Shown in pieces: positions 6,544 through 61,249 of a stretch of DNA of 64,000 bases. The stretch comes from Telmatospirillum siberiense. Its GTDB lineage: Bacteria > Pseudomonadota > Alphaproteobacteria > Rhodospirillales > Magnetospirillaceae. The translations under genes and the position numbers were made by a program. The stretch's first letter is position 1; every line of letters starts with the position of its first letter. Location of the stretch: assembly GCF_002845745.1 (NCBI RefSeq), contig NZ_PIUM01000002.1, forward strand, positions 124,001 to 188,000, in the 5' to 3' direction. The notes beneath the pieces were generated by a model that was not told where the DNA came from, did not search any database, and worked only from the letters and a program-made list of their open reading frames with translations.

Positions 6544-6544
6544 G

Positions 6545-8203: not shown

Positions 8204-8233
8204 TTAACAAATGCGAATAAGACGCATTATACT
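8204..8233 (+). promoter_or_regulatory. Sigma-70-like promoter with Fur-box-like dyad in the spacer
   Basis: TTAACA (8204-8209) and TATACT (8228-8233) are 18 bp apart. The spacer is filled by the dyad AATGCGAATAAGACGCATT (8210-8228), with 6-bp arms AATGCG/CGCATT. The same 19-bp form recurs at 16029-16047 and, degenerate, at 14285-14303. All three precede iron-uptake units, so an iron repressor (Fur or Fur-like) is inferred. Confidence 0.6.
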
Positions 8234-8259
8234 TATCCGTTGGTAAGGGGTCGTGAGTG

Positions 8260-10416
8260 ATGAAGCAGGTGGCGATGCGTCCGGTGGTGGCCGGTATTGC
8301 GGGGGTGGCGATGATGGTCGGGGCCTCGGGTTTCGGGCAAAGCGTGGTCGCGGAGGAGGCTTCCTCGGCATCCGATGCGATCGCGCTGCCGGCCGTCGCG
8401 GTGGAAGGGGCGAAGACGGACGACGGTGCGACGGGGGCGGTGACCGGATTCGTCGCCCAGGGAGGTCGCAGCGCGACCAAGACCGCCACCGATCTGGTCG
8501 AGACGCCGCAAGCCATCACCGTGATCAGCCGGGATCGGTTGGATGCGACCAACAGCCGGAGCGTTGCCGATGCCATCCGCTATACCGCCGGCGTCAGCGA
8601 TTACGGCGGGCGCGATGACCCTCGCGGTTACGGCGGAACCATTCGCGGCTTTTCCGCCGACACCTATCTCGATGGCCTGCGTCTGCCGGATGCCTCCGCC
8701 TCCCAGACCTTCGATCTCGAGCCTTATGGGCTGGAGCGGTTGGAGGTGCTGCGCGGCGCCAGTTCAGCACTCTATGGTGGCGGCAGTCTGGGCGGCATCA
8801 TCAACGGCGTGAGCAAGGTGCCGCGCGCCGACCAGGTCAACGAGTTGGCAATCCAAAGCGGGTCGTTCAACCGTATCCAGGGGGCTGCGGATCTGGGCGG
8901 TGACGTCAGCGCGGACGGCTCGCTGTTGTGGCGCCTGAATGCCCTGGTCCGCGATTCCGATACCGACTTCAATGATATCAAGAACAATCGACTCTATGTG
9001 GCACCATCCCTGAAATGGATCGGCGATAAATCCAGCTTTACGCTTCTGGCCAGTCATACCCAGATCGACGCCGGGTCGTCGGCGCAGTTCCTGCCGGCGC
9101 TGGGAACGGTCCTATATAATCCGAAAGGTAAGATCGCCCGCGATTTCCTGGTGGGCGATCCCAATTTCGACATTTATTCAAAACGGCAGACCTCGGTCGG
9201 CTATCAGTTCGAACATCAGTTCAATCCAGACCTGAGTTTCCGGCAGAATGTCCGCTTCGCTCACATGGATCTGAATTATCGCTTCGTCACCGCGGTGGCG
9301 TTGCTTTCCGACAATCGGACCCTGACCCGCCAGGCGCTGTTGCAGTCGTCGACCTACAACAATGTCTCGATGGACAATCAAGTGGAATACAAGGTCAATA
9401 CGGGCCTGGTTTCCCATGATTTCCTGGCCGGTCTCGACTTTTCCTCGCAATTCATCGCGCTTCGGCGCGGCCAGGGCACGGCGCCATCGCTGGATATCTT
9501 CAATCCGGTCTACCGCGCGGTCACCTCTCCCGGCTATGCCAATAAGATCAACACCAATCAGACGGAATCGCAGACCGGCCTCTATGGCCAGGACCAGATC
9601 GGCCTCGGCAACTGGCGTCTGATTCTGACCGGCCGGCAGGATTTCGCTGACAGCGATCTCGTCAACAACAACAGCCATACCACGACCCAAAGCAGTCCCC
9701 AGGCGTTCACCTACCGGACGGCGTTGCTCTATGCCTTCCCGGTCGGTATTTCGCCCTATGTCGCCTATGCCACGTCGTTCCAGCCGCAGAGCGGCACCGA
9801 TGTCAGCGGATCGCCGTTTTCGCCGCTGACCGGCGATCAGGTGGAACTTGGCGTCAAATATCAGCCGCCGGGAAGCTCGACGCTGTTCTCCGTCGCCACT
9901 TACGATCTGACGCAGCAGAACGTGCTGACGACCGATCCCAACAATTCGAGCTACAACGTCGAAACCGGAGAAATCCGGACGCGCGGTGTCGAATTCGAGG
10001 TTTTGGGCAGCCTGGCCGAACAGGTCAATTTCATCGCGGCCCTGACCTTCCAGGATCCCCGGATCACCAAAAGCAATGTGGCGGGAGAGGTCGGCAACCG
10101 GCCGACCACGGTGCCCAGCCGGATGGCCTCGCTCTATCTGGACAAGACCTGGGCACTCGACGAGCGTGTGGCGGTCGGCCTTGGCGGCGGGGTTCGCTAC
10201 CAGGGTACGACCGAAGGCACCGATCCGAACACTTTCGAGGTGCCCAGCCAGACCGTTTTCGATCTCAACGGCCATGTCGATTACGAGCGCTGGCGCTTGC
10301 AGGTCAATGCCACCAACGTGACCGACGAGACCATCTACGCGGCCTGTACCCGAACGGTCTCCTGCTCCTATGGAACGGGGCGGGCGGTGTTCGCCACCCT
10401 GTCCTATCGGTGGTAA
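8260..10416 (+). CDS. TonB-dependent siderophore receptor without N-terminal signalling domain
   Basis: A 718-residue outer-membrane receptor. It has a signal peptide (VVAGIAGVAMMVGASGFGQSVVAEE), a plug domain (TPQAITVISRDRLDATNSRS ... IRGFSADTYLDGLRLP ... LERLEVLRGASSALYGGGSLGG) and a beta-barrel ending in the classical aromatic terminus ATLSYRW. No STN domain precedes the plug, so it should transport but not signal. A Cys pair near the C-terminus (ACTRTVSC) is shared with the second receptor at 16066. GTG at 8257 is an alternative start; TAAGGGG lies at 8243-8249. It heads an operon with a complete ferri-siderophore ABC importer. Confidence 0.93.
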   Translation: MKQVAMRPVVAGIAGVAMMVGASGFGQSVVAEEASSASDAIALPAVAVEGAKTDDGATGAVTGFVAQGGRSATKTATDLVETPQAITVISRDRLDATNSRSVADAIRYTAGVSDYGGRDDPRGYGGTIRGFSADTYLDGLRLPDASASQTFDLEPYGLERLEVLRGASSALYGGGSLGGIINGVSKVPRADQVNELAIQSGSFNRIQGAADLGGDVSADGSLLWRLNALVRDSDTDFNDIKNNRLYVAPSLKWIGDKSSFTLLASHTQIDAGSSAQFLPALGTVLYNPKGKIARDFLVGDPNFDIYSKRQTSVGYQFEHQFNPDLSFRQNVRFAHMDLNYRFVTAVALLSDNRTLTRQALLQSSTYNNVSMDNQVEYKVNTGLVSHDFLAGLDFSSQFIALRRGQGTAPSLDIFNPVYRAVTSPGYANKINTNQTESQTGLYGQDQIGLGNWRLILTGRQDFADSDLVNNNSHTTTQSSPQAFTYRTALLYAFPVGISPYVAYATSFQPQSGTDVSGSPFSPLTGDQVELGVKYQPPGSSTLFSVATYDLTQQNVLTTDPNNSSYNVETGEIRTRGVEFEVLGSLAEQVNFIAALTFQDPRITKSNVAGEVGNRPTTVPSRMASLYLDKTWALDERVAVGLGGGVRYQGTTEGTDPNTFEVPSQTVFDLNGHVDYERWRLQVNATNVTDETIYAACTRTVSCSYGTGRAVFATLSYRW

Positions 10417-47436: not shown

Positions 47437-48273
47437 ATGATGTCGCGGGTTGCTGGTTTGGCGCTGGGTGGTCTTTTCGCGGCCTGTGTGGCCGGCGAAG
47501 CCCTGGCCGCGCCGGCCGGAGCGGAGTTGGCGCCGCATCGGGCTGTTTATGCGATGGCGCTTAACGCCACCAAGCCTGGCGGCGGGGTGACCGGCGCTTC
47601 CGGCGCCATGACCTATAAGTTCGGCGACTCCTGTGATGGCTGGACCGTTGAAAATCGCACGGCCCTGACATTTGCCTATAGTGACGGTGCGCCGGTGGCC
47701 ACGACCTGGGATTTCGTCACGTGGGAATCCAAGGATGGGTTGCATTACCGTTTCCGCGTTCGCAGCACCCGCGATGGCGTCGTCAGTGAGGAAATCGACG
47801 GTGTCGCCAACCTGGATGGACAGGGCAAGGGTGGTGTCGCCAAGTTTTCGTTGCCAGAGCAGAAAACCATGCGTTTGCCCAAGGGGACGCTGTTCCCGAC
47901 CGAGCATACCATTCGCCTGCTTGAGCATGCGCAGCGCGGCGAGCATATGCTTGAGAGGGTGCTGTTCGACGGCACCGGCTCCGATGGCCCGTTCGACGTG
48001 AACGCCGTCATCGGCAAGCTGTTTCCGGCCAATGCCAATATTTCTCCCGCCGCGGCCAATCCGGCGGTGAATTCGGCCCTCCTTTCGGCTCCGTCCTGGC
48101 GTATGCAGATGGCTTTCTTCGCGCCCGCCGCCAACGAGCCGACCCCTGATTATGAAGTGGCGTTGCGTTATTATCTGAATGGTGTGGCCGACGAGGTCGT
48201 ACAGTCCTTCGGCAATTTCAGCCTGAAGGGAACCTTGCAAAAATTGGAACCCCTGCCCAAGCCGGATTGCTGA
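47437..48273 (+). CDS. DUF1849 / EipB-like envelope-integrity protein
   Basis: 278 residues with a signal peptide (VAGLALGGLFAACVAGEALAAPAG). The mature part matches DUF1849: LAPHRAVYAMALN, GAMTYKFGDSCDGWTVENRT, TTWDFVTWESKDGLHYRFRV and LPKGTLFPTEHTIRLLEHA. Cysteines occur at DSCDG and at the very C-terminus (KPDC), the pair that forms the conserved disulfide of Brucella EipB, a periplasmic protein needed for envelope stress resistance. GGAGGT precedes the ATG at 47437. A diguanylate cyclase gene follows after seven bases. Confidence 0.85.
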   Translation: MMSRVAGLALGGLFAACVAGEALAAPAGAELAPHRAVYAMALNATKPGGGVTGASGAMTYKFGDSCDGWTVENRTALTFAYSDGAPVATTWDFVTWESKDGLHYRFRVRSTRDGVVSEEIDGVANLDGQGKGGVAKFSLPEQKTMRLPKGTLFPTEHTIRLLEHAQRGEHMLERVLFDGTGSDGPFDVNAVIGKLFPANANISPAAANPAVNSALLSAPSWRMQMAFFAPAANEPTPDYEVALRYYLNGVADEVVQSFGNFSLKGTLQKLEPLPKPDC

Positions 48274-48280
48274 TTACACA

Positions 48281-49414
48281 ATGCAGAACCTGGTCCACGA
48301 GGTGATGGATCAGCGATTGCTCGAATTGTTGGATGCCTGGCGTGAGGCCTTTTATCCCAGCGAGTCGATCGATGACCCCAAACATCGGTTCGCCCGGTTC
48401 CTCGACCATTTGCTGGTTATTGGAATCGACGGCGTGAAAAGCCGCTATCTTCATTATGGACACAACTTCACCGAGCGGTTTGGAACGGATCTTACCGGAA
48501 AGGTTATAGATCTGTTGCCGACGGAAATCCTGCCGGCCGAGCGGCGGGGCATGCTGGCTTTCGAATATACCTATGCGCGCCGCGTGCAGCGTCCTCTCTG
48601 GCGATCCTATACGGCGGAGTTCGGCGATGGCCAGACGGAGACGTGGCAACGTCTGGTATTGCCCGCCGGCAAGGGGCGTCTCGTCGTCGGCGCTTTCGCC
48701 ACGGCGACTCCGCCACCGCACGGTGGTCCGGAACTGTTGACCGATGGGGTCGCGCTGCTGCGTTTCCTGATCGAGCGGGTTCCGGTGGTCATCGACAGCC
48801 GGGGCGATATTCTGGAACTGGCTTTGTCGCTGGAAAGTTTCAGCGATACCCAGCAGCAAATGGCCGAATTGGAGGAATGGGCGACATTGGACGCCCTGAC
48901 CGGAGTGGCCAATCTTCGTCATTTTCATCATCTGGCCGGCCTCGAATTGGACCATGCCTATCGCATGGGGCGGTCGATCTCGGTCCTGATCCTCGATATC
49001 GACCATTTCAAGAAGATCAATGACAGTTGGGGGCACGCCGTCGGTGACGAGGCTTTGAAGGCTTTCGCCGGTGCCTGTCGCAAGGCATTGCGGGAGCCTG
49101 ACATCCTCGGGCGGATCGGAGGGGAGGAATTTGCCGTCGCCCTGCCGAATACCCGGATAGACGAGGCGCAGATGATCGCCGAGCGTCTGCGCCGTCAGGT
49201 CGAGCAGGTGTCGTTGCCGCTGTCTCAGGGAGGGGTCGTCCAATTCACCGTGAGCATCGGGGTGGCGACATCCATGCGCGTAAGGGCGAGCCGTGCGGAA
49301 AGACCTGATATTCGTTCCTTGCTGGCCATCGCCGACGGGGCTCTTTACCGTTCGAAGTCAGAAGGACGGAACCGCATCAGCGTGGCCCAGGATAGCGAGG
49401 CGAAGAGCGGCTAA
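48281..49414 (+). CDS. Diguanylate cyclase with N-terminal PAS-like domain
   Basis: 377 residues. Residues ~1-180 are PAS-like (LLVIGIDGVKSRYLHYGHNFTERFG, WRSYTAEFGDGQTETWQRLVLP). A GGDEF domain follows: DALTGVANLRHFHHL, LILDIDHFKKIND and the active-site GGEEF. REPD five residues upstream fits the inhibitory RxxD I-site. It should make c-di-GMP from two GTP with product inhibition. It is probably cotranscribed with the DUF1849 gene. A dispersed repeat begins at its stop codon. Confidence 0.92.
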   Translation: MQNLVHEVMDQRLLELLDAWREAFYPSESIDDPKHRFARFLDHLLVIGIDGVKSRYLHYGHNFTERFGTDLTGKVIDLLPTEILPAERRGMLAFEYTYARRVQRPLWRSYTAEFGDGQTETWQRLVLPAGKGRLVVGAFATATPPPHGGPELLTDGVALLRFLIERVPVVIDSRGDILELALSLESFSDTQQQMAELEEWATLDALTGVANLRHFHHLAGLELDHAYRMGRSISVLILDIDHFKKINDSWGHAVGDEALKAFAGACRKALREPDILGRIGGEEFAVALPNTRIDEAQMIAERLRRQVEQVSLPLSQGGVVQFTVSIGVATSMRVRASRAERPDIRSLLAIADGALYRSKSEGRNRISVAQDSEAKSG

Positions 49415-49540
49415 GGCTCTGGGTCGAAATAATCGCCCCAGAGCCTTAGCGTATTATGACGCCTGCGCCACCGGCTTCGGCGGGCTCAAGCGCCGCTCGG
49501 GCTCAAGGGCCTGGTTCGGTCATTCCGTCCCAGGCCCTAA
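49412..49540. repeat. Dispersed two-hairpin repeat, copy 2
   Basis: Starts at the TAA of the diguanylate cyclase gene and reaches the stop codon of the convergent SDR gene. Hairpin 1 pairs TAAGGCTCTGGG (49412-49423) with CCCAGAGCCTTA (49437-49448). Hairpin 2 pairs AGGGCCTGG (49506-49514) with CCAGGCCCT (49530-49538). Several stem positions differ from copy 1 (20713-20842) in both arms, so base pairing is preserved. Confidence 0.78.
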
Positions 49541-50298
49541 CTCTTGGCCGGCAGGCGGGCCAGGAATGGGTCGGTCCAACCGGGCGGCAATATCGACATC
49601 ATCCAGATGACGAGAGCCATCGGCCAGGGGTAGGCGAGGCGGGCCCGGTTCGCATCGATGCCTCGGCGCATCAGTTGTCCGGCTTTTTCCGCGCTCATCA
49701 GGAACGGCATGGGAAAACGGTTGACCGCCGTCATGGGGGTTTCGACGAATCCCGGACAAATGACAGTGAGTCCGATGCCATCGCGGGCCAAGACACCCCG
49801 CATACCCTCGCCCCAGATCCGAACGGCGGCTTTGCTCGCGCAGTAGGCCGGCGCCGTCGGCATGCCGCGAAATCCGGCCAGGGACGCCATCAGAGCGATC
49901 TGTCCCGTCCGGCGCGGCCGCATGGCATCGATCGCCGGCAATACCGTATTGATCACGCCGTCGAAATTGACCTTAAAGATCCGGCGGGTCTGTTCCGCCG
50001 TTTCATCGCCGGTGGTTCCGGTTCCCGCGGAAATGCCGGCGTTGGCGATCACCAGATCGAGGGGCGCCGTCCCGTCGGAACGGGTGATCCACTCGGCCAT
50101 CCGTCCGGCGTCGGTGACGTCGATAAGGGCGGTACTGGCTTGTGCGCCCAAAATCCGGCAGGCATCGGCGACCTCTCCAAGGCGTGGCCCGTCGCGGCCG
50201 GACAAGAAAAGATATCCACCATCCTTGGCATAGGCGAGTGCCAACGCTCTGCCAAGGCCGCTGGAGGCTCCCGTGATCAAAACGTTGCGTCGCGTCAT
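49537..50298 (-). CDS. Short-chain dehydrogenase/reductase
   Basis: About 253 residues, classical SDR: nucleotide motif NVLITGASSGLGRALALAY (TGxxxGxG), IANAGIS (NAG), the catalytic Ser in IALMASLAG, then AYCASKAAV (YxxxK) and CPGFVETPM. The C-terminus has a hydrophobic patch (WPMALVIWMMSILPPGW) suggesting membrane contact. It reduces or oxidises an unknown alcohol/ketone with NAD(P). I start at MTRRNVLITGASSG, although the frame is open to 50352. Confidence 0.87.
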   Translation of the reverse strand: MTRRNVLITGASSGLGRALALAYAKDGGYLFLSGRDGPRLGEVADACRILGAQASTALIDVTDAGRMAEWITRSDGTAPLDLVIANAGISAGTGTTGDETAEQTRRIFKVNFDGVINTVLPAIDAMRPRRTGQIALMASLAGFRGMPTAPAYCASKAAVRIWGEGMRGVLARDGIGLTVICPGFVETPMTAVNRFPMPFLMSAEKAGQLMRRGIDANRARLAYPWPMALVIWMMSILPPGWTDPFLARLPAKS

Positions 50299-50441
50299 GG
50301 AGGGGAGAGTAGCAGGGGGGCGGGCGTGGCGGGAAGGGGGCGGATCAATCATGGGGCGCGCATTCGACCGCCCTGGAAGGTTGTTGCCCGCGGAGACACA
50401 CGGTATAACCCTGTCTTGCTTGAATATTTCGATTTGAGGAT

Positions 50442-51338
50442 ATGGCCTTGAGCGTCAACAGCATGACCGGCTACGCCCGAACGCAGGGACAAGACGACGC
50501 CGTGACCTGGATTTGGGAGGTCAAAAGCGTCAATGGCCGTGGTCTTGAGATGCGGGCACGTCTTCCCGCCGGCTATGATCATTTGGATCTGCCGGTCCGA
50601 GATGCCGTCCAGAAACGTTTCAAACGCGGCAATCTCAGTATTTCCCTCAATATCGATCGTGTGAGGAAGGATGCCCCGCTGGCCGTCAACGAGGCCGTTC
50701 TCGCCCAATATGTCGCTGTTGCCCGGCGATGGCACGAGAAGGCGCCCGACCTCGGCTTGCCGCGCATCGACGGGCTGTTGGCCCTGAAGGGCGTTCTGGA
50801 GGTCGGCGAGGAGGATGTCCCGCCGGAGGTGGAGGAACGCCGTTCGAAAGCCCTGCTGGAGGGCTTCCGGCAGACCCTTGAGGCCATGGCCGCCATGCGC
50901 GCCGCCGAAGGCCGCCGGTTGGCCGAGGTCCTCGGAGGACATCTGACGGAAATCAACGCCCTGGTCGAGCGGGCGGAATCCCTGGGGAGCTTCGATCCGC
51001 TCACCATCAAGGAGCGCCTCAGGCTGCAGATCACCGCCCTGCTTGACGCGGTGCCGGCCTTGTCGGAAGAACGGCTGGCGCAGGAGGCGGCCCTGCTCGC
51101 CGCCAAGGCCGACGTGCGCGAGGAACTGGATCGGTTGAAAGCCCATCTGGCGGCCGCCCGGGAAATGCTGGCTGCCGGTGAGGCGGTCGGCCGGAAATTG
51201 GACTTCCTGTGCCAGGAGTTCAATCGCGAGGCCAATACCCTCTGTTCCAAAGCCAATGATATCGAACTCACGCGGATCGGTTTGGCGCTGAAAGCCATCA
51301 TCGAACAGTTCCGCGAGCAGGTGCAGAACATCGAATGA
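50442..51338 (+). CDS. yicC: YicC-family endoribonuclease
   Basis: 298 residues: VNSMTGYARTQGQ at the N-terminus, EVKSVNGRGLEMRARLP and KRGNLSISLNIDR, and the C-terminal DUF1732 part (GRKLDFLCQEFNREANTLCSKANDIELTRIGLALKAIIEQFREQVQNIE). E. coli YicC is an endoribonuclease affecting RNA turnover. GAGGAT lies right before the ATG. Its stop overlaps the gmk start, the usual arrangement. Confidence 0.95.
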   Translation: MALSVNSMTGYARTQGQDDAVTWIWEVKSVNGRGLEMRARLPAGYDHLDLPVRDAVQKRFKRGNLSISLNIDRVRKDAPLAVNEAVLAQYVAVARRWHEKAPDLGLPRIDGLLALKGVLEVGEEDVPPEVEERRSKALLEGFRQTLEAMAAMRAAEGRRLAEVLGGHLTEINALVERAESLGSFDPLTIKERLRLQITALLDAVPALSEERLAQEAALLAAKADVREELDRLKAHLAAAREMLAAGEAVGRKLDFLCQEFNREANTLCSKANDIELTRIGLALKAIIEQFREQVQNIE

Positions 51339-52000
51339 CGAGCGGTTCCTCCTCTTCCCCCCTTTCGCCGCCGTCGATTCGGCGCCGTGGTCTGATGCTG
51401 GTTCTGTCGTCGCCGTCAGGAGCCGGCAAGACGACCATCTCGCGTGCCCTGCTGGCCAAGGATGCCAACATCGTCATGTCCGTTTCGGCGACGACGCGGC
51501 CTCCCCGGCCCGGCGAAGTGGAAGGCGAGGATTATTTTTTCATCGAGCGGCCCCGTTTCGACGCCATGGTGCAAGGAGGGGAGCTTCTTGAGCACGCCCG
51601 TGTGTTCGATAATCATTACGGCACGCCGCGCGCGCCGGTCGAGCGGGCTCTGGCCGACGGCCGGGATATCCTGTTCGATATCGACTGGCAGGGAACCCAG
51701 CAACTGCGGCAGAACGCCCGCGCCGATCTCGTGAGCATCTTCGTGTTGCCTCCCTCGGTGGGAGAGTTGGAGCGGCGGTTGCGCAGCCGGGGGCAGGACA
51801 GTGTCGAAGTGGTGCAAAAGCGCATGGCCAAGGCGGGTGACGAAATGAGCCATTGGCCGGAATACGACTATATCATCGTCAATGTCGACCTGGCCGGCAG
51901 CGTCGCTGCCGTCGAGGCCATCCTTGCCGCCGAGCGTCTGAAGCGGGAGCGGCAGGTTGGTCTGGCCGATTTCGTCAACGGTCTGCGGGGGCAGGGCTGA
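51335..52000 (+). CDS. gmk: Guanylate kinase
   Basis: 221 residues: P-loop LSSPSGAGKTTISRALL, GMP-binding SATTRPPRPGEVEGEDYFF and FDIDWQGTQQLR. It phosphorylates GMP to GDP. The first ~20 residues are a Ser/Pro-rich extension. It overlaps yicC by four bases (ATGA), a translational coupling. Confidence 0.97.
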   Translation: MTSGSSSSPLSPPSIRRRGLMLVLSSPSGAGKTTISRALLAKDANIVMSVSATTRPPRPGEVEGEDYFFIERPRFDAMVQGGELLEHARVFDNHYGTPRAPVERALADGRDILFDIDWQGTQQLRQNARADLVSIFVLPPSVGELERRLRSRGQDSVEVVQKRMAKAGDEMSHWPEYDYIIVNVDLAGSVAAVEAILAAERLKRERQVGLADFVNGLRGQG

Positions 52001-52042
52001 CTGTTCAGGAGACGCAGCGATAATAAACCGCTGCCACCACTC

Positions 52043-52110
52043 CGTTGTCACCGCCGCGCAAGCGGGGGACCCAGGCTGCCTGCTGGGTCCTGCTTGCGCG
52101 GGAATGACGA
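52043..52110. repeat. Palindromic intergenic repeat after gmk
   Basis: The arms CCGCGCAAGCGGGGGACCCAG and its near complement CTGGGTCCTGCTTGCGCGGG form a long imperfect stem around GCTGCCTG. The outer TCA...TGA bases resemble the TCATTCCCGCG-AAGC intergenic repeat common in Proteobacteria. It lies between convergent gmk and the cytochrome/PBP gene and may act as terminator for both. Confidence 0.6.
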
Positions 52111-52136
52111 TGTGATTCGTTTATTTCCGTGCGTCG

Positions 52137-53243
52137 CTATTTCACCGGAACGAAACTTTTTCCGACGATGGCCTGACCATCCGGGGTCAGGATGAAATCG
52201 AAGAAGCTCTTGATCGGCCCGGTGAGTTGCTGGGCGATCAGGATCAACGGGCGTTTCAGCGGATAAGCCCCCGATTGCACGGCCTCCCGGCTGGGCGCGG
52301 CGCCGTCGACGGTGATAGCCTTGACATGCGGCGTGGCGAAGGACATGGACGAGGCGGCGATGCCGCTCTCATCCTGGGCGAGGTCCTCGATACAGTCGGT
52401 GGCGTCGTCCAACTCCTTCAGGGGGCCGTATTTTTCGGTCCCCAGAACCATGTCCTGGAATGCCTTGACGGTCGCCCGCCCGCCCGTCAGTTTTTCGCTA
52501 TAGACCGTAATCGCCTTGTCGGACCCTCCGAACTGTTTCCAGTTGGTGGCTCGGCCGGTGAAGATTTCCTTCAGATCGGCCTTACTCAATCCGGTGACCG
52601 GATTCTTAGGGTTGACGAACACGCCCATCACATCGAAGCCGATGACCTCATGGACGGCGATCTGGGCCTTTTGCTGTTCGGACATTTCGCTGGCCAGTCC
52701 GCCCAACTGGGTGCGGCCTTCGAGAACGGCCTTAAAGCCCGCGTTTGCCCCAGCCCCGCCGATGGCGCCGAATGGAATGCCGGTCCGTTCGGTGAATAGT
52801 TTGCTGGCTTCGGGCAGGATTTTGGTGCCGATGGTCGTGGCGCCTTCGTAGGTGAGCGGCAGGGCTGCGGCGGAAGCCTGGGCCGCGGCGGCCTTCCGCA
52901 TCTGAAGTGTGTCTGCGGCCGCTTGCTGGAAGGTGGCGGACTGGGGCACGTCGCGGTGGCAGCCGTCACACGTCTTGAAAGCTGCTTTTCCGTTGTGGCA
53001 GGCGAAACAGGATGCGTCCTTTTTGTGATCGGCGAGGGTGATCAATCCTTTCTTTTGCGTCTGGAACAGTTGGAGATGGCAGTCGTTGCAAACATATCCT
53101 TTCGAGGCGTGCAACTGGCCATCGAAGGTGACGCGGCCTTGCCCGCCACCTCCATACAGAATGGTCTCACCGCTCGTCGCCCAGGCGCTTTGCGTGAACC
53201 CGGCGAGAGCGAGCAGGACCAGAAGGCCTGGGAGTTTTCTCAT
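52137..53243 (-). CDS. Secreted triheme c7-type cytochrome fused to PstS-like binding domain
   Basis: 368 residues. A signal peptide (residues 1-22) precedes a small haem domain with three CxxCH sites: C52-H56 (CNDCH), C79-H83 (CFACH) and C92-H96 (CDGCH), plus spare histidines H45 and H73 able to serve as distal ligands. After a linker, residues ~128-368 form a periplasmic binding domain of the PstS/PBP-like-2 type (TTIGTKILPEASKLFTERTGIPF, VFVNPKNPVTGLSKADLKEIFTGRATNWKQFGG, GGRATVKAFQDMVLG). The start overlaps the stop of the FMN dehydrogenase gene. I infer a periplasmic electron-accepting protein tied to ligand binding; the ligand is unknown. Confidence 0.85.
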   Translation of the reverse strand: MRKLPGLLVLLALAGFTQSAWATSGETILYGGGGQGRVTFDGQLHASKGYVCNDCHLQLFQTQKKGLITLADHKKDASCFACHNGKAAFKTCDGCHRDVPQSATFQQAAADTLQMRKAAAAQASAAALPLTYEGATTIGTKILPEASKLFTERTGIPFGAIGGAGANAGFKAVLEGRTQLGGLASEMSEQQKAQIAVHEVIGFDVMGVFVNPKNPVTGLSKADLKEIFTGRATNWKQFGGSDKAITVYSEKLTGGRATVKAFQDMVLGTEKYGPLKELDDATDCIEDLAQDESGIAASSMSFATPHVKAITVDGAAPSREAVQSGAYPLKRPLILIAQQLTGPIKSFFDFILTPDGQAIVGKSFVPVK

Positions 53244-54442
53244 GCCCGGACCTCGGAAATGGTATCGGGGGAGACGTTGCGCGCCGTCGCCGTCCCGGTC
53301 AACACCATGGAATCGATCAATTCCGTCCGGATGCCGTTGAGGATCAAGGCCACGCCTTCTTTTCCAGCGCCATGGGCGCCGCGCACCAGGGGGCGACCGC
53401 ACATGGTCGCATCGGCGCCCAGGGCCAGGAGTTTCAGCACGTCGGCACCGTGACGCACCGCGCCGTCGGCGATAATGGTAATCTTGCCCTTCACCCTGTC
53501 GGCGATCGCCGGAAGGATCTGCGCGACGCCCGGTGTGTGATCGAGCACCCGGCCCCCGTGATTGGAAACGCCGATGGCTCGGGCGCCGGCATCGACGGCG
53601 ATTTCCGCCTCACGAGCCGACATGACGCCCTTGATGAAGAAGGGCAGCGTCGTTGACTTGGCCAATTCGGCCAATTGCTTCGGCGTCTTCGGTTCGACGG
53701 TTTGGCCGGCGACGGCACGGGCGGCCCGTCCGGCGGAATCGATGTCGATGCCGAAGGCAACGGCCCCGGCTTCCTCGACCATGCGGATCCGCTTGATGAT
53801 CTCGTCTTGTGTCTTCGGCTTGATGATGACCACGACCTTGCCGCCATACTGCTTGACGACGGCCATTCGTCGCTGGAAGACCTCCATGGGGTCGCCGATG
53901 CCATCGGCGACCAGGCCGATCGTGCCGGCCATGCGACAGCCGCCGATGATCGCGTCGACATAGTCTTCCTCGGTCATCTTGCCGCCCATGTTGTAAGTCA
54001 CCCCGCCGGTGGCCGCAGCCATGACGGGCAAGGACAGGGTCTCGCCGAATACGACGACCGAGGCGTCGGGCTTCTTGACGTCGTGGAATGTTCGCATTTC
54101 GAGATTCAGGCGGGCCAGCGAATCGAAATTGTTCCGGAAGGCTGCGCCGGAACCGATGCCGCCGAAGCCGGGAACTTCGCCGGCGCAGGCGACACCGTTG
54201 CACTCCGGACAGACGCGACAGCGGGGATAGAGCTTCTCGCGTGCTACCCGCAGGACCTCGGCCATGGTCAAGGTGCCACCCGCCGCGGCCAGAGGCTGGG
54301 AACTTGCCGCCGCGGTTTCGGCGGCTTTGGCTTCCGCGCTGGCAACCATCGGGGCCAGCACCGCTCCGGCGCCGGCCACGGTGGCGTTCAGTAGAAAATT
54401 GCGACGGTCGAGTCCGCTCTTGTCGTGACTTTCGATACCCAT
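53240..54442 (-). CDS. Tat-exported FMN-dependent alpha-hydroxy-acid dehydrogenase
   Basis: 400 residues. A twin-arginine leader is present (LDRRNFLLNATVAGAGAVLAP, RR at 13-14, ASAEA cleavage region). The FMN barrel shows VVIIKPKTQDEIIKRI, FFIKGVMSAREAEIAVDAGARAIGVSNHGGR with the catalytic His, and IIADGAVRHGADVLKLLALGA. Cysteines C75, C78, C81 and C86 (CRVCPECNGVAC) match the Cys-rich start of clostridial-type members and could bind a metal or cluster. AAGGAGG precedes ATG 54442. Export as a folded flavoprotein next to a multihaem partner suggests periplasmic oxidation of a hydroxy acid. Confidence 0.88.
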   Translation of the reverse strand: MGIESHDKSGLDRRNFLLNATVAGAGAVLAPMVASAEAKAAETAAASSQPLAAAGGTLTMAEVLRVAREKLYPRCRVCPECNGVACAGEVPGFGGIGSGAAFRNNFDSLARLNLEMRTFHDVKKPDASVVVFGETLSLPVMAAATGGVTYNMGGKMTEEDYVDAIIGGCRMAGTIGLVADGIGDPMEVFQRRMAVVKQYGGKVVVIIKPKTQDEIIKRIRMVEEAGAVAFGIDIDSAGRAARAVAGQTVEPKTPKQLAELAKSTTLPFFIKGVMSAREAEIAVDAGARAIGVSNHGGRVLDHTPGVAQILPAIADRVKGKITIIADGAVRHGADVLKLLALGADATMCGRPLVRGAHGAGKEGVALILNGIRTELIDSMVLTGTATARNVSPDTISEVRA

Positions 54443-54847
54443 GGATTTCCTCCTTGATCGGGTGTGATGGAATGGTTCTGGACGGGAAGTCGTTGCTCGC
54501 AACGCGCGTGTTTCGTGGGGGCGGGAATGGCGAGATGATTCGATCGCTCTTTCACGTCTCCGATATATCAATCGCCATTCGGAAAAATTTGAAAATTAAA
54601 CAAATTTCTAAAATCAATACTTAAAATATCGAAAATATTAACTTTATTTACCAAGTAACATTATTAATATTTTTCATTTTATAATGATATTCAGATTTAT
54701 CATGGTGTAATGCGCATCTCGTATAGTGATCACAATTCCGTAGCCGCCGGAGGGAACCTCGCCGTAATTTATTCCTGTAAAAACATTATGGAAATAGGAA
54801 GACTTTTTGAAGCCGCCTTGTCATGATCATTGCTATCGGAATTGACG
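54443..54847. promoter_or_regulatory. AT-rich divergent promoter region with LysR-type dyads
   Basis: No gene is seen. AATAT-N5-ATATT at 54625-54639 fits the T-N11-A LysR box. AATATTAA (54634-54641) and TTAATATT (54664-54671) form a larger inverted repeat. The middle 150 bases are far richer in A+T than the flanking genes. The site likely serves the LysR gene and the divergent dehydrogenase/cytochrome operon. Confidence 0.5.
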
Positions 54848-55699
54848 ATGAACGGTCTTGCCATGTTCGATCCTGTCCTTCTCTCCACCTTCGTGGAGGT
54901 GGCTCGCGCGGGCAGCTTTTCCGAAGCTGGTCGTCGCCTCGGTTTGTCCCAGTCCACCGTCAGCGAGCAGGTCCGCCGTCTGGAGCGTCTGGCCGAGCGC
55001 CGTCTTTTCGTGCGCGATACTCATCGGGTGGCCTTGACGGCGGATGGCGATGCGATGGTCCGCTTTGCGCGCACCATTCTCGACGTCAACGAACATGCCA
55101 GGCGCTATTTCGCGGGTTCCGCCAAGCGGCAGCGGCTTCGGCTGGGGGCGTCGGAGAATTTCGTACGCAGCCGACTGCCGTCGGTCCTGCATGATTTCCT
55201 GTCCCGCACTTCCGATGTCGATCTCGAACTCACCGTTGGATTGAGCGATTCTCTTTTCGACCTGCTTGATGCGGGGGAACTGGATATGGTTCTCGGCAAG
55301 CGAAGGCCGGGGGAGGCGCGGGGCCAGTTGATCCGGCGGGAAAGGATGGTCTGGATCGGAACGCACGGCACCGTGGTCCGGCCGGAGACGCCCATTCCGC
55401 TCGTGATGTATCCCCCGCCCAGCATGTCTCGCGCCATGGCCATTGAGGCGTTGGAAAAGGCGGGACTCGCCTGGAGGATCGTCTGCACCTGCGATGGGTT
55501 GATGGGGTTGCAGGCGGCGACCTTGGGTGGCTTCGGGGTGATGGTTCAGCCGCAGAGCATGATTCCGGCGGGGCTGATCGAACTGCCGCCGTCACCGATG
55601 CTGCCCGATCTCGGGGACGTTGAGTTCGTCGTGGCTTCGGCCACCCGTCATCCCCGGGGGGCGACGGCCGAACTCACCGAGGTGCTCCTGAGGCACTGA
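54848..55699 (+). CDS. LysR-family transcriptional regulator
   Basis: About 283 residues: N-terminal helix-turn-helix (FDPVLLSTFVEVARAGSFSEAGRRLGLSQSTVSEQVRRLE) and a LysR effector domain (LRLGASENFVRSRLP ... LLDAGELDMVLGKRRPG ... LMGLQAATLGGFGVMVQP). It is divergent from the FMN dehydrogenase/cytochrome pair, the classic layout for a LysR activator and its target. ATG 54848 is chosen; 54830 and 54863 are alternatives. The effector may be the hydroxy acid used by the operon. Confidence 0.86.
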   Translation: MNGLAMFDPVLLSTFVEVARAGSFSEAGRRLGLSQSTVSEQVRRLERLAERRLFVRDTHRVALTADGDAMVRFARTILDVNEHARRYFAGSAKRQRLRLGASENFVRSRLPSVLHDFLSRTSDVDLELTVGLSDSLFDLLDAGELDMVLGKRRPGEARGQLIRRERMVWIGTHGTVVRPETPIPLVMYPPPSMSRAMAIEALEKAGLAWRIVCTCDGLMGLQAATLGGFGVMVQPQSMIPAGLIELPPSPMLPDLGDVEFVVASATRHPRGATAELTEVLLRH

Positions 55700-55704
55700 T
55701 GGCG

Positions 55705-55729
55705 TGACGCAGAAAAAACGTCATTTTTT
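55705..55729 (+). terminator. Terminator after the LysR gene
   Basis: TGACG (55705-55709) pairs with CGTCA (55719-55723) around a nine-base A-rich loop and runs into TTTTTT at 55724-55729. Confidence 0.6.
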
Positions 55730-55760
55730 ATAGAGAATCCCCGTGCCCCTCGCGAGTGAG

Positions 55761-55776
55761 ACGGGTGTTTACCCGT
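55761..55776 (-). terminator. Small hairpin after rsmA
   Basis: ACGGGT (55761-55766) pairs with ACCCGT (55771-55776) around GTTT. It lies just past the rsmA stop in the minus direction, between convergent genes. No U-run is evident. Confidence 0.4.
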
Positions 55777-55793
55777 AAGCCTTGAAAGCGGGG

Positions 55794-56624
55794 TCACCGG
55801 CGAGCGTCGAGCGCCTTGGCGAGAGCGCAAAATTCCGCGACCGTCAATTCCTCGGCGCGGACGGTCGGAGAAATGGATGCGGCCTCCAGCAACGCATCGC
55901 TGTCGCCCAGAGCCTTCAGGCTCGATCGCAACATCTTGCGGCGTTGTCCGAAAGCGGCGGCGGTGACCTTCTCCAGGCTTTCCATGCGGACCGGTGCCAG
56001 AGGGAGTGCTCTCGGCACCAGGTGAACCACCGTGCTGACGACTTTCGGCGGCGGGGTGAAGGCTTCCCGGGCAATATTGAAGAGGGGGCGGACGTCGCAA
56101 CGCCATTGCGTGATGACCGACAGGCGTCCGTAATCGGAATCGCCCGGCGCGGCGGCCAGGCGATCGACGACTTCCTTCTGGAACATCAAGGTCAGGCTTT
56201 CGAAGGCGTCGGCTTGCCGCAGCCATCCGATGAGCAAAGCCGTCGAAATGTTGTAGGGCAGGTTGGCGACGATCCGGCGTGGAGCATCGCCCAGAGTGGA
56301 CGCGTCGATCGCCAGGGCATCGCCGGCGACGACCTCAAGGCGCCCCGGATAGGCTTCGGCGATTTCCCGTTGGATAAGAACAGCCCGATCATCCCGTTCG
56401 ACGGCGATGACGAGACGGGCGCCGGCCTCCAGCAGGGCCCGCGTCAATCCGCCGGGGCCGGGGCCGATTTCAATGGTGGTTCCGGCCGACAGATCTCCGG
56501 CGGACCGGGCGATACGTCCGGTCAGGTTGAGATCGAACAGGAAGTGCTGTCCGAGAGATTTGCGCGCGGCCAAGCCATGCGCCTTGATGACGTCGCGCAA
56601 AGGGGGGAGGGGGTGTTCAGCCAC
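55794..56624 (-). CDS. rsmA: 16S rRNA dimethyladenosine transferase (KsgA)
   Basis: 276 residues: [19 protein letters not shown] at the N-terminus, SAM motif [18 protein letters not shown] and target-site NLPYNIST. It dimethylates A1518 and A1519 of 16S rRNA. It overlaps the 3' end of pdxA by eight bases and is the last gene of the lptF-lptD-surA-pdxA-rsmA operon. Confidence 0.97.
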
Positions 56625-57615
56625 GGTGGTCCGCCATTGTCCGCGCCATGGTCAGCGCGGCGATCAGGCTGTCGGGATGGGCCCGTCCGCTGCCCGCCAA
56701 ATCGAGGGCGGTGCCGTGATCGGGGGAGGTGCGGATGAAGGGCAATCCCAGCGTGACATTGACCCCGCCATCGAAGTCCAATGTCTTCAGGGGAATCAAC
56801 GCCTGATCATGGTACATGCAGAGGGCCGCGTCATATCCCGCCCGCGCCCTGGGATGGAACATGGTATCGGCGGCAAGGGGGCCGAAGGCGTCGATTCCTT
56901 GACGGCAGAGGGACTCCACCGCCGGCCTCACGATTTCCTCGTCCTCCGATCCCATGGCGCCATTCTCGCCGGCGTGTGGATTGAGGCCGGCGACGGCCAG
57001 ACGAGGGCTTGAGATGCCGAAGTCCTCCCGCAAAGCCTTGGCCGTCAAAATTCCGGTGTCGACGATCTCATCGATCGACAGCGCCGCGATGGCCGCCCTG
57101 AGCGGCAGATGGACGGTGACGGGGACGACCTTGAGCTGCGGCGCGGCCAGCATCATGACCACGCGGGGGCTTTCTGCCAGCGCGGCGAGAAATTCCGTAT
57201 GGCCGGGAAAGGGGAAGCCCGCGTCGTAAAGAACCTTCTTATGGATCGGATTGGTGACCACGGCGGCCGCTTGTCCGGACCGGGTCAGTCGCACCGCCTC
57301 TTCGATCGCGGCGATAACGGCCTGGGCGTTGGCCGGGTCGGTGATTCCTGGCCGACTGGGGGATGGCAGTGATCGGTGCAGGACGGGCAGAGCGTCATCG
57401 AAGCAGGCGAGCGCCTGCTCGGGATGGTCGATCGGTTGGATCCGCACTCCCGGATCCAACCGATCGGCAAGCCTGGTCACCCTGTCGGCATCGTCGATGA
57501 GGAAGAAGGGCGCCAGGTCCGCCGTCTTTCTGCGCCGCCAGGCGGCCAGGGCGATGTCCCCGCCGATTCCGGCGGGTTCGCCCATGGTCAGCGCCAATGG
57601 CAGGGCCTTCGTCAC
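56617..57615 (-). CDS. pdxA: 4-hydroxythreonine-4-phosphate dehydrogenase
   Basis: 332 residues: [40 protein letters not shown] with metal-site His, [11 protein letters not shown] and [43 protein letters not shown]. It oxidises 4-phosphohydroxy-threonine in pyridoxal phosphate synthesis. It is placed between surA and rsmA, as in many Proteobacteria. Confidence 0.97.
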
Positions 57616-57631
57616 GGATGAGCCTGCCTGG

Positions 57632-58903
57632 TCAGACGCGGATCTCGACGAAAGCGGCGCGTCGAAGATCCCGCAGATACCGTCTCGCCATGATGTCCAT
57701 CTGGTCGTCTTCCAGACGCGTGCGGATTTCGTCGCGCGACGGCAAGCCGCCTTTCGGGTCGATGCGTCCGCACACGGTGAACAGCCGGCGGACGTTGCCG
57801 TCGTCCATCGGCTGGCTTAGCTGGCCCTGTTTAAGGTCGAGGACCAGCGCCGCGATGGCCGGAGGAATTTCGGAACGTCTGACCTTGGCGTTCCGATTAT
57901 ATTCCGCCGTGGCGACGTTCTGCTTGAGCCGCTGTTCATAATCATCGCAGCTCTTGCCGGATGCGATGACGTCGCGCACCTGCTGCAACTGCGCATCGCG
58001 TTCAGCTGGAGTGGAGCCCGGCAGGATGGGCAATTGGATGGTCATGATGTCGTAGAACGGCTCGGTTTCTTCGCTTTGACCGGCGATGCGCTTATCGCGC
58101 AGCAGCATAATATGGTAGCCGTCCACAGTGCGGATGGGCGGGGTGATGTTGCCTTTGTCGAGCTTGGCCAAGGCGTCCGTCAGTTCGTCGTCCAGGGATC
58201 CTTGCGAAACCCAGCCGAGATCGCCGCCGGCCGCGCCGGTCTGGCTGAATTGGCGGGCCAGAGCGGGGAAGGGCGCACCCTGGCGCATCTGTTCGATCAG
58301 GCGCTCGGCCAGCGTTCTGACCTCGGTATCGCGTCGTGGGTCATCGACCGAGAGAAAAATTTCGGCGACCAGATATTCCGGTTTGCCGAGGTTGGCTTTC
58401 AGGGTGGCCAATCGGGCGTCGATCTCGGCCTCGCCGACATGCAGATCGGGGATCAACTCGTGCCGGACCACACGCACCCAGCTCATTTCGGCGTTGATCT
58501 GCTGGCGCAGGGTTTCGAGTTCGATGCCCTTGCTCTGCAGAAACGGTTCGAACGCTCCGGGCGGCATGCGGTTCTGACGTTCGATATTATTGATGCTGTT
58601 GGCGATTTCGGCGGGGGCCACGGTGATCTTGAGCCGCTTCGCCTCCTGCGTCTTCAGGCGGTCGTCGACCAGGCCGCGCAGAACCTGGGGGCCGATCCTG
58701 GTACGGGATTCCAGCGTATCGGGGAGATTGGACGAGGCCAGCGCCAGACGCATGCGCTGCTCAAGATCGTGCAGCGTGATGATGTCGTCGTTGACCACGG
58801 CGGCGACCCGTTCGGTCTCCTGGGCGGCGAGGGGAGCACTGCAGACCAGCAGGATAGCCAGGCCACGCAGAACGAGAAGGAATTGAGAGCGGATCGTCAT
58901 CAT
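57632..58903 (-). CDS. surA: Periplasmic chaperone/peptidyl-prolyl isomerase SurA
   Basis: 423 residues: signal peptide (FLLVLRGLAILLVCSAPLAAQ), SurA N-terminal domain (VAAVVNDDIITLHDLEQRMRLAL), a parvulin domain (YLVAEIFLSVDD ... ARQFSQTGAAGGDLGWVSQGSLDDEL ... GNITPPIRTVDGYHIMLLRD) and a second, degenerate C-terminal one. It escorts outer-membrane proteins such as LptD through the periplasm. It begins three bases after the lptD stop. Confidence 0.93.
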   Translation of the reverse strand: MMTIRSQFLLVLRGLAILLVCSAPLAAQETERVAAVVNDDIITLHDLEQRMRLALASSNLPDTLESRTRIGPQVLRGLVDDRLKTQEAKRLKITVAPAEIANSINNIERQNRMPPGAFEPFLQSKGIELETLRQQINAEMSWVRVVRHELIPDLHVGEAEIDARLATLKANLGKPEYLVAEIFLSVDDPRRDTEVRTLAERLIEQMRQGAPFPALARQFSQTGAAGGDLGWVSQGSLDDELTDALAKLDKGNITPPIRTVDGYHIMLLRDKRIAGQSEETEPFYDIMTIQLPILPGSTPAERDAQLQQVRDVIASGKSCDDYEQRLKQNVATAEYNRNAKVRRSEIPPAIAALVLDLKQGQLSQPMDDGNVRRLFTVCGRIDPKGGLPSRDEIRTRLEDDQMDIMARRYLRDLRRAAFVEIRV

Positions 58904-58906
58904 GGT

Positions 58907-61249
58907 TCAGAATACGTCCACAGGGAATTGGGCCAAAGTCTTGAAGTTGATGCTGAGCGTGAAATAGTGCCCCGCAGTGAAGGTCTTGACGGTGGTGTGG
59001 CTGGAACCGGCGTTGGCGGTTATCTGGAAACACTCGTCTTCGTAAATCACCCTGACGCCCGTCTGTAGCGGGGCGGCGCCGGCGCCAAGATTCTGCGTAG
59101 TGTATAGCTGTGTCGACCAATAATGCGAAGCCTGCACCGACAGGGTCCCGGTCAGTTGTTCTCGCGCGTCGAACAGGCTGGTGGGATTCAACCGATCGTA
59201 AAAAACATAACTCGTCTGCAAATTCAACGGCTTCGGTCCGATGGACGTGTTGATCTCGCTGCGCCGCAGGGTCAGGCTGTCCTTATCCATCCTGAAGCCG
59301 TATTGCACGGTGAAATTGGAGGACGGCGAAACCCCGGCCCGTCCGACGATATCCGAGACATGATGGTCGAGACCACTGCCTTGTGGGAATACCGCCTCCG
59401 GATGCACCTGGTAGGACTGTCCGAGCACGACATCCGCCGTTCCCATGCCGCGATTGACGATGGTGTATTGTCCACCATAGGCCACGCGCGGCCCGGTCAG
59501 CACACGATCATATCCCGTGCCGGGATTGGCTTTGAAGATGTTGGTGTCGTCCAGTTCGAAATCGAGGCTGTCCTCGTTCGGGATCTTGCTGGTGTTGCCG
59601 CCATAAGGGCTGGCCGTCGCGACGACGATCGGCGAAATGGTTTGAGAGGAATGTTCTCCCAGCCGGGTGAATGGGTAGCGCCAATCGACGGATGCCATGG
59701 GAATCGATCGGGCCCGGTTATATTGTTTGTTGTCGTCGGTTGTGACGTGGTCGCTGTTGTAGCCGTCGGCCCGGACCGACGCGCTGATCTTGTAGATCTC
59801 GCCGTCGGCGGCGGTATAGGGCAGGTTCCAGCCCGTCAAGGTATTGACCCGCCGGCTGTTAACCCCGTCCTGGCGGGTGATCACCGCGGCGTGGGTGTCG
59901 AAATTCCAATAGCTGCCGTAGCGGCCGGGATTGCCTACATAGCTGTAGGTGGCCATCGGGAAGACCACCGGCGACTTCGGGGTGGTTGAGGTGGGCGTGC
60001 TCAGGCTTTGGAACGAATAGGCCTCGAAAGCCGTATAACTCCGTTCGTCGAAGCCTTCCAGGTAGGGGCGGGAGGTCAGATAGGGCTGGGGCGTGTGGTA
60101 ACCGAAGGTGGTCAGGTAATAGCGGTCGGAGGCCCGCTGGACCGCATATCCCGCTCTCCAGGTGTCGTCCAGGTCGAAACGGCCGTAGGCATCCACATGC
60201 CAACCGACCGTCGCCTTGGTTTCGACGGTCGATTCCGGCATGTTGGTGACGCTGAACGTCGTCTTGGTGCCGCCGTAAATGTTCCGCCAGCGATGAACGA
60301 GGGCCAGTTGCTCGTAATTGCCGTCGTTGCTGGAGCTTGAACTGCTGCTGCTGCTGCTGCTGCTGCTGCTCAATCCGCTGACGGTCGCCATGGGGGTCAA
60401 GGTGATGTCCTGATAGGGATCGATCACCTGGAAATAAGGGATGCGGATGCCAGTGCCGACGATGGTGTTATTGAGAACGGACGGCGGCAGCAATCCGCTT
60501 TTGCGTTTTATCGTCGGATCGGCGTGCGAGAGATAGGGGGTATAGGCGACGGGGACGCCGTCCATCTCCAGCCAGGCATCGTTATATTCGATGAGATGTT
60601 CGATTTCATCGTGGGTGATGCGGTTGGCTTTCATCTGCCAGAGCGGTGGCGATCCGCTATTGTCGGCGCAGGGCTTGCAGGCCGTGTAGACGCCTTTCTC
60701 GAAGACGCTGCGGTCGCCGGCGACCCGGTTGCCGCTGTTGGCGGCGATACGCGAGTCATCGACCATCAGGATGCGGATGCCCTTCGTCGTCGCGGTCTTC
60801 ATATCGCCGGTGAGTTCGATGTAATCGGCGAAGGTTACGTCACCCGTGGTCTCGGTCAGGCTGACGTTGCCGGTGGCGATGATCACGTCCTGCTTCAAAT
60901 TGTAGGACAAGGCGTCGGCCAGCAGGATCCGCTCGCCCTGATCGACCTCGACGTGACCGCGGGCGGTTACCGTGTTGAGATCGCGATCATGGACGATCTG
61001 ATCGGCGGTGATCAGGGCCGGCTGGTTTTCGTTCTGCGAGCTCTTGCGCTTTGGGCGCGTGGTGGCTCGCTGCCGCTGGGAACCGCTTCCGGTGGCCGTC
61101 GCGGCGTCGGGACTGGCGTCAGCGCTGCTTTTATCCGTTCCGCCCGTCGGCGTGGAGCCGTCAGCGGTGGATTGCTGAGCGTCTGCGGGCAGGCCGAAGG
61201 CGACGACGGAGGCGACGGCAAGCATTACGGAGGAAAGACGGCGGGACAA
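58907..61249 (-). CDS. lptD: LPS-assembly outer-membrane protein LptD
   Basis: 780 residues: signal peptide ending PADAQQ, a Ser/Thr-rich low-complexity stretch, an LptA-like beta-jellyroll (LITADQIVHDRDLNTVTARGHVEVDQGERILLADALSYN), and a large barrel ending in INFKTLAQFPVDVF. Cysteines CKPC and a C-terminal CFQ could form the usual disulfides. It inserts LPS in the outer leaflet with LptE. A run of about a dozen serines, coded by a CTG/AGC microsatellite, lies near residue 300. Neighbours surA and lptF belong to the same pathway. Confidence 0.93.
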   Translation of the reverse strand: MSRRLSSVMLAVASVVAFGLPADAQQSTADGSTPTGGTDKSSADASPDAATATGSGSQRQRATTRPKRKSSQNENQPALITADQIVHDRDLNTVTARGHVEVDQGERILLADALSYNLKQDVIIATGNVSLTETTGDVTFADYIELTGDMKTATTKGIRILMVDDSRIAANSGNRVAGDRSVFEKGVYTACKPCADNSGSPPLWQMKANRITHDEIEHLIEYNDAWLEMDGVPVAYTPYLSHADPTIKRKSGLLPPSVLNNTIVGTGIRIPYFQVIDPYQDITLTPMATVSGLSSSSSSSSSSSSSSNDGNYEQLALVHRWRNIYGGTKTTFSVTNMPESTVETKATVGWHVDAYGRFDLDDTWRAGYAVQRASDRYYLTTFGYHTPQPYLTSRPYLEGFDERSYTAFEAYSFQSLSTPTSTTPKSPVVFPMATYSYVGNPGRYGSYWNFDTHAAVITRQDGVNSRRVNTLTGWNLPYTAADGEIYKISASVRADGYNSDHVTTDDNKQYNRARSIPMASVDWRYPFTRLGEHSSQTISPIVVATASPYGGNTSKIPNEDSLDFELDDTNIFKANPGTGYDRVLTGPRVAYGGQYTIVNRGMGTADVVLGQSYQVHPEAVFPQGSGLDHHVSDIVGRAGVSPSSNFTVQYGFRMDKDSLTLRRSEINTSIGPKPLNLQTSYVFYDRLNPTSLFDAREQLTGTLSVQASHYWSTQLYTTQNLGAGAAPLQTGVRVIYEDECFQITANAGSSHTTVKTFTAGHYFTLSINFKTLAQFPVDVF
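60342..60370. repeat. Trinucleotide microsatellite inside lptD
   Basis: CTG is repeated nine times plus CT, read as AGC (Ser) on the coding strand. It extends the serine run to about twelve residues. Changes in copy number keep the frame, so only loop length would vary. Confidence 0.85.

Follow-up and report, generated by a model that had tools for sequence, protein, structure and literature searches.

Electron transfer from an FMN (flavin mononucleotide)-dependent hydroxy-acid dehydrogenase to a haem partner is known from flavocytochrome b2, the L-lactate dehydrogenase of the yeast mitochondrial intermembrane space, in which the FMN_dh domain passes electrons to one b5-type haem carried on the same chain and from there to a c-type cytochrome. 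Other described proteins that bear on the present locus are the "alpha-hydroxy-acid oxidizing proteins" of anaerobes, the periplasmic triheme cytochromes c7 of Geobacter, and the PstS phosphate-binding proteins. Here we analyze a 64,000-nucleotide stretch of the Telmatospirillum siberiense genome (contig NZ_PIUM01000002.1, positions 124,001 to 188,000; genome of 6,200,830 bases over 81 contigs), called the window below and numbered from its first base. It carries a cassette of three genes (Table 1), which encode an FMN-dependent dehydrogenase with a twin-arginine translocation (Tat) leader, a triheme cytochrome c7 fused to a PstS-like periplasmic binding protein (PBP) domain, and a divergent LysR-type regulator. 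Comparison with other genomes argues that the Tat FMN enzyme and c7 form a real and conserved two-gene redox module, to which the rare fused binding domain would be a variant addition; its substrate is a prediction. A preliminary description of the locus largely holds for architecture and domains, the operator dyads excepted, and the four-base overlap that it reported between the FMN and fusion genes is present at the coordinates given (ATGA at 53240-53243).

The Tat FMN enzyme is paired with cytochrome c7

All 11 Tat-leader copies of the FMN enzyme, the window's included, have a c7 encoded directly downstream, whereas none of 47 leaderless relatives has one in the available flanks. The flavoenzyme-haem coupling suggested earlier is thus supported well beyond the locus, and the adjacency, whose uniqueness to this genome was among the conditions under which that description would have given up its coupled-system reading, recurs in 11 copies from several phyla. 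The Tat copies form one clade (support 100/99) and occur in Rhodospirillales, in one gammaproteobacterial metagenome-assembled genome (MAG), and in the phyla of a "Deltaproteobacteria" MAG (G748) and a "Nitrospirae" MAG (G750). A second Tat FMN enzyme of the window genome (50% identity) is encoded immediately ahead of a stand-alone c7. In the gammaproteobacterial MAG bog_1200 (G747) three FMN genes of this branch occur, and behind each come a c7 gene and then a NapC/NirT-type gene.

FMN searches matched 34 of 297 genomes in the phylum of G748 and 17 of 198 in that of G750; four of the 34 are without loci, and their neighbours are left out of the counts. Among the 49 loci from these two phyla, four (L053, L054, L083, and L084) encode an enzyme with a textbook RRDF leader, and in each of them a triheme c7 of 100-101 amino acids is encoded ~20-70 bp downstream. 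In the other 45, and in the clostridial L042 and L044, no RR motif precedes the cysteine motif, and at these same 47 loci the flanks (downstream sequence being <150 bp at L075 and L085 and 544 bp at L029) contain no open reading frame (ORF) of at least 50 amino acids with at least three CxxCH motifs; L098 has a 64-amino-acid ORF with two. No further member besides the window genome was found in 385 genomes of its class at E <= 1e-60 or in 398 of its phylum at E <= 1e-70, and none besides G747 in 296 genomes of the latter's order; all these genome searches, like the one of the class with the fusion described below, scored the best few candidates per genome and may have overlooked weaker or additional copies.

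Counted strictly by script, the pairing holds for 9 of the 11 Tat copies and for none of 48 other proteins (the 47 leaderless four-cysteine members and the classical member L043). Its two misses are the window and L004, where the longest-start fusion ORF overlaps the FMN gene by >60 bp, whereas the ATG start gives 4 bp; the L031 copy (same gene as L035) was scored by its NapC gene, as its c7 is broken by a run of N with two of three haem motifs whole. A separate re-search recovers FMN and c7 genes side by side at 11/11 module loci. The c7 part of the window fusion is 58% identical to the FMN-partnered c7s of three genomes and 51% to that of G1222, versus 31-47% for other c7-type matches in the same four genomes and 39-49% in three genomes that gave no Tat FMN match. 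The pairing looks like one old linkage retained across wide divergence.

The FMN enzyme and its four-cysteine subfamily

By its PF01070 profile match and the TIM-barrel fold of its model, the window enzyme is a member of the FMN-dependent 2-hydroxy-acid dehydrogenase family. The predicted structure (predicted TM score [pTM] 0.70; mean predicted local distance difference test [pLDDT] 66, with the N-terminus and cysteine loop <50) matches hydroxy-acid oxidases, including glycolate and mandelate oxidases (best Foldseek E 3.5e-19). Its scores lie below the cut-offs of the curated models for LldD (PRK11197; 132.1 vs 376) and lactate oxidase (TIGR02708; 108.1 vs 645.5), and MftD-type and IPP-isomerase-type models match it in part, also under their cut-offs.

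The twin-arginine leader and SNHGGR active site of the preliminary description are both present. The leader motif is DRRNFLL, which barely passes NCBIfam TIGR01409 (17.0 bits, cut-off 16.7; relative L084 reaches 25.9 bits), and an RR motif occurs in 11/11 Tat-leader copies; the assignment as a Tat substrate was made by RR motif with hydrophobic stretch and by TIGR01409 and not by a dedicated Tat predictor. Sequence alignment places the enzyme in a branch of the lactate oxidase family marked by four cysteines: all 58 aligned members, leaderless or not, keep C-x2-C-x2-C-x4-C. His295, Arg298, Lys271, and Asp235 are likewise invariant (58/58); we take His295 to be catalytic and Arg298 to bind substrate, and assume the usual family roles for the other two. 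That the four cysteines hold a metal centre is a guess.

A virus collection scanned with the FMN alignment gave 15 stretches with no relative among them, and 17 phage records that match the FMN enzyme (five listed) were taken as host sequence.

The c7-PBP fusion protein

The fusion is a single chain in which an apparent Sec-type leader (by eye) is followed by the c7 domain with its three CxxCH motifs, an Ala/Gln-rich linker, and the PF12849 domain. PF14522, TIGR04257, and PF12849 bear out the original account of a secreted chain combining three CxxCH sites with a PstS-like domain, and on these profiles the first domain is assigned as a triheme cytochrome c7, which should carry three haems. For the binding domain, "PstS-like" stands and full PstS does not (TIGR02136, 121.7 bits vs curated cut-off 206.6). 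In all three known fusions the PstS motifs GST, ASR, and SGT, whose residues we take to form the phosphate site, are altered (to GATT, ASE, and TGGR in the window protein), and the ligand is probably not phosphate. By eye, no Pst permease is present among the ORFs of the window at 48000-60000, of L004, or of L005 at 3000-9500 (an inspection and not a permease profile search), nor does the ORF list show permease genes of any kind near the window cassette.

A scan of species genomes with the fusion gave seven loci, of which two have the full fusion (L004, Rhodospirillales MAG bin_346; L005, Telmatospirillum MAG CA127) and five the c7 part only. L004 and L005 each carry the FMN, fusion, and divergent LysR genes in the window's order, with 74-87% protein identity to the window for all three. 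In the 385 genomes drawn from the class, 11 match the fusion at E <= 1e-12, and only the window genome's match spans both parts; among 25 plasmid records found with it none covers 80% of the query, and in the 20 listed the match is confined to the PstS-like part. The full fusion was thus detected in three Rhodospirillales genomes, two being MAGs, a narrow distribution that might suggest a chance adjacency or a functionless fusion artefact. Against this, fusion and gene order are the same in all three genomes, and the ratio of nonsynonymous to synonymous substitution (dN/dS) is about 0.10-0.18 for the FMN, fusion, and LysR genes (LysR compared with L004 only) and about 0.14-0.18 for the fusion. 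All three genes are under purifying selection, and given the dN/dS and the three orthologues we reject the artefact explanation, which we regard as scarcely credible.

A transposase-like gene (by eye) lies directly past the fusion gene in L004 (7337-8557), and the neighbours on the LysR side of L005 differ from the window's; from these two observations, the cassette may have moved. L013, from a genome of the window organism's family, has a tandem pair of PstS-like genes (1357-3038).

Relatives of the PBP part of the fusion accompany the module at 4 of 11 loci, some of the 11 being cut by contig ends: the three fusions and L103 (G1522). On a 5.4-kb contig, close to its end, L103 has genes for LytS, a LytTR regulator, the FMN enzyme, c7, and a separate PstS-like protein (PF12849 E 1.7e-22), in that order. 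In a tree of 15 PBP rows this last protein falls outside the fusion group, and although the sequences are few, the two PBP associations therefore look independent; binding proteins have probably been recruited twice. The L103 protein as direct source of the fused domain was dropped on the same tree.

The regulator and intergenic regions

The divergent LysR gene across an AT-rich gap was described correctly: its product matches PF00126 (E 1.6e-19) and PF03466 (E 1.3e-23) and belongs to the LysR family, and the 405-bp gap has 39% GC against 61% across the window. The LysR-type dyads reported there do not stand out from shuffled sequence: for each of the three genomes' intergenic regions, 64-79% of 1000 mononucleotide shuffles contain a T-N11-A dyad at least as good as the best real one. 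The adjacency of LysR holds for the three fusion orthologues and not for the FMN-c7 pair as such; it was detected at none of the other eight of 11 module loci, several of which are cut by contig ends.

On the other side, a hairpin between the fusion gene and gmk is perhaps a shared transcript end; a repeat family around 52053-52102 was tested and is not above chance. The cassette is flanked by gmk (51335-52000, + strand) and by ksgA, pdxA, surA, and lptD (55794-61249, - strand), named by eye from their translations.

Table 1. Features of the T. siberiense cassette (window coordinates)
Feature	Position	Strand	Evidence or remark
Strong GC-rich hairpin directly 3' of fusion gene	52047..52108	-	Fold z-score -4.5 for 52040-52136
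c7-PBP fusion gene, 368 amino acids	52137..53243	-	By eye, Sec-type leader over residues ~1-23
PstS-like binding domain, residues 121-353	52185..52883	-	PBP_like_2 PF12849 E 1.5e-21; canonical phosphate-site motifs altered
Triheme cytochrome c7 domain, residues 38-97	52953..53132	-	PF14522 E 8.2e-11; TIGR04257 51.0 bits, cut-off 40
Haem motif 3, CDGCH, residues 92-96	52956..52970	-	CxxCH in translation
Haem motif 2, CFACH, residues 79-83	52995..53009	-	CxxCH in translation
Haem motif 1, CNDCH, residues 52-56	53076..53090	-	CxxCH in translation
Tat-leader FMN-dependent dehydrogenase gene, 400 amino acids	53240..54442	-	PF01070 E 1.4e-58
SNHGGR active-site motif, residues 293-298	53549..53566	-	Translation and subfamily alignment
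C-x2-C-x2-C-x4-C motif, residues 75-86	54185..54220	-	Invariant in 58/58 aligned subfamily members
AT-rich divergent promoter region, 39% GC	54443..54847		No dyad beyond chance
Divergent LysR-type regulator gene, 283 amino acids	54848..55699	+	ATG at 54848; PF00126 and PF03466; orthologues in L004 and L005

Proposed function and alternatives

We propose that the cassette encodes a periplasmic dehydrogenase for lactate-like 2-hydroxy acids with its own c7 acceptor, a binding domain as an add-on, and LysR control, a reading that seems on balance just probable. Tat would export the folded FMN enzyme, and Sec the cytochrome, which would be loaded with three c-type haems; FMN would take hydride from a small 2-hydroxy acid of the lactate or glycolate type, and electrons would pass singly to the triheme c7, perhaps via a metal centre bound by the four cysteines; c7 would hand them on to a quinone-linked cytochrome of the NapC type or to a different carrier in the periplasm. 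The fused domain of Telmatospirillum and its two relatives would most likely keep substrate or product near the enzyme instead of working with an ATP-binding cassette transporter, and the LysR protein would control the operon. A fuller version, in which the PstS-like domain catches a scarce hydroxy acid for the FMN enzyme and the fused c7 takes the electrons (capture, oxidation, and export without uptake, with binding proteins recruited twice), we consider possible but doubtful. Of the pathway first suggested, from hydroxy acid to haem, the FMN-haem coupling is supported, and hydroxy-acid oxidation is a prediction from the conserved His, Arg, Lys, and Asp with Lys208 in place of Tyr. Nothing that was tested favours in particular the transporter input or extracellular electron route also suggested.

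For some leaderless relatives, the neighbouring genes suggest lactate or glycolate. In L100 the FMN gene directly adjoins a glcF-type gene, and part of a glcD-type gene lies alongside; L036 has glcF and glcD types (by Pfam) and a lactate permease (by eye) 3.4 to 7.4 kb upstream; and the flanking sequence of L055, L056, L057, and L064 includes a distant glcF-type relative (31-39% identity), on the opposite strand in the first three. A LytS/LytTR two-component pair lies directly upstream of the Tat FMN gene in L103 (4-2488); LytS-type kinases bind pyruvate in E. coli, according to one report (PMC10653868).

Several observations weigh against our proposal. Most leaderless relatives have no glcF-type or related match in the flank, and no lactate permease or GlcDF is seen by eye among the neighbours of the window cassette. 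Lys208 occupies, in 58/58 members, the position after strand 4 of what we take to be the classical active-site Tyr; the second such Tyr, presumably of the N-terminal loop, is not evident in the subfamily, where that loop carries the cysteine motif and is poorly modelled. The Tat copies form a single clade, so 11/11 does not represent 11 independent events. L103 is the single case of separate FMN, c7, and PBP genes, and its binding protein groups with two other PBPs (99/98) apart from the fusions. An AlphaFold2 model of the fusion (7 rows) reached only pLDDT 35 and pTM 0.22 and was not used. Finally, the L004 genome, a MAG, has no PF03264 match, and NapC could equally feed electrons into c7. 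Because Lys replaces the active-site Tyr, both the 2-hydroxy-acid substrate and the direction of flow are offered as proposals.

The same replacement, together with the four added cysteines (58/58), raises the possibility that the subfamily acts on something other than a 2-hydroxy acid, in which case the c7 link would be real and the named chemistry wrong. Arg239, present in 11/11 Tat copies versus Leu/Ile in 47/47 leaderless members of the alignment (n = 58), and the partial matches to MftD-type and IPP-isomerase-type models agree with this; the lactate- or glycolate-type neighbours of some relatives and the retained His, Arg, and Lys do not, and we think a different substrate unlikely, though worth bearing in mind.

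Electrons might also run from quinol via a NapC-type protein to c7 and on to the FMN enzyme; this would then reduce a periplasmic 2-oxo acid or other compound as an anaerobic terminal reductase, akin to the fumarate or urocanate reductases of the periplasm. Electron transfer by NapC proteins is usually outward from quinol, though they can serve either way, and a NapC/NrfH-type gene lies directly 3' of c7 in 3 of 11 copies, all from one MAG (PF03264 E 1.9e-51 in L007); in the window genome PF03264 matches twice, on another contig and not adjoining the cassette. Since NapC can serve both directions and the L004 genome has no such match, flow either way is possible. The replaced Tyr would suit a reductase, but oxidation-type catalytic residues are conserved, lactate/glycolate-dehydrogenase-type genes adjoin some leaderless relatives, and we know of no terminal reductase in the FMN_dh family; reverse flow is accordingly judged rather unlikely. 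Two further cytochrome arrangements were noted: past its FMN and c7 genes L102 (1882-4361) has a class III cytochrome with four CxxCH, ResB (PF05140), and a ResC-like gene (by eye), and L010 (5215-6711) encodes a Nitrospirae protein whose single chain runs from a NapC-like N-terminus into repeats of a c7-like triheme unit.

The binding domain was not found at 7 of 11 module loci and so should be dispensable for the core reaction, which suggests that it tunes substrate supply or docking. It could even give the fusion a sensing role, for redox state or a solute, or a docking one, with the bound ligand shifting haem potential or its contact to a membrane partner and turnover secondary. This dispensability, the restriction of LysR to fusion forms, and the altered phosphate motifs are in keeping with such a role; on the other hand, the FMN pairing is conserved (11/11) and the ORF list shows by eye no membrane sensor partner beside the window cassette, and we hold this to be improbable.

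Comparison with known systems

A study of goethite and a Telmatospirillum MAG reports no cytochrome c7 match at a cut-off of 1e-20 (PMC6933298); in our view a c7, at ~80 residues, may easily fall short of so strict a threshold. No description of a Tat FMN-c7 module or of a c7-PBP fusion was recognized in the portions of the open-access literature searched. The present comparison defines a small exported redox module, predicted to comprise a Tat FMN enzyme and a triheme c7, that is common to distant bacteria, and its fixed electron partner makes part of the functionally unassigned four-cysteine branch testable. Should the fusion act as we suggest, binding proteins would be able to take a direct part in respiration, and bacteria in peat could oxidize fermentation acids periplasmically, with no need for uptake.

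Among described enzymes, flavocytochrome b2 matches the window enzyme in sequence (1szf, E 2.4e-23), but here the acceptor is a separate triheme c7 gene (11/11 copies) and the enzyme has a Tat leader and the four-cysteine motif. The "alpha-hydroxy-acid oxidizing proteins" of anaerobes (L044, L099, and L036) share that motif, Lys208-Pro209 (mostly IKP), and SNHGGR; they are leaderless, have no c7 neighbour in the flank, and have Leu/Ile at Arg239. The Geobacter periplasmic c7 (PpcA family) and the TIGR04257 domain resemble the fused cytochrome by PF14522 and TIGR04257, whereas here c7 is dedicated to an FMN enzyme and fused to a binding domain, and it scores 16.9 bits on the Geobacter c7 equivalog model, far under the cut-off of 120. 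PstS proteins (4gd5 and 4q8r) match the binding domain over its whole length (E ~1e-30) and differ in that here the GST, SR, and SGT motifs are altered, a haem domain is fused, and no Pst permease is seen by eye beside the cassette. NapC/NrfH quinone-linked cytochromes, finally, are encoded next after c7 in three copies of the module and not beside the window cassette.

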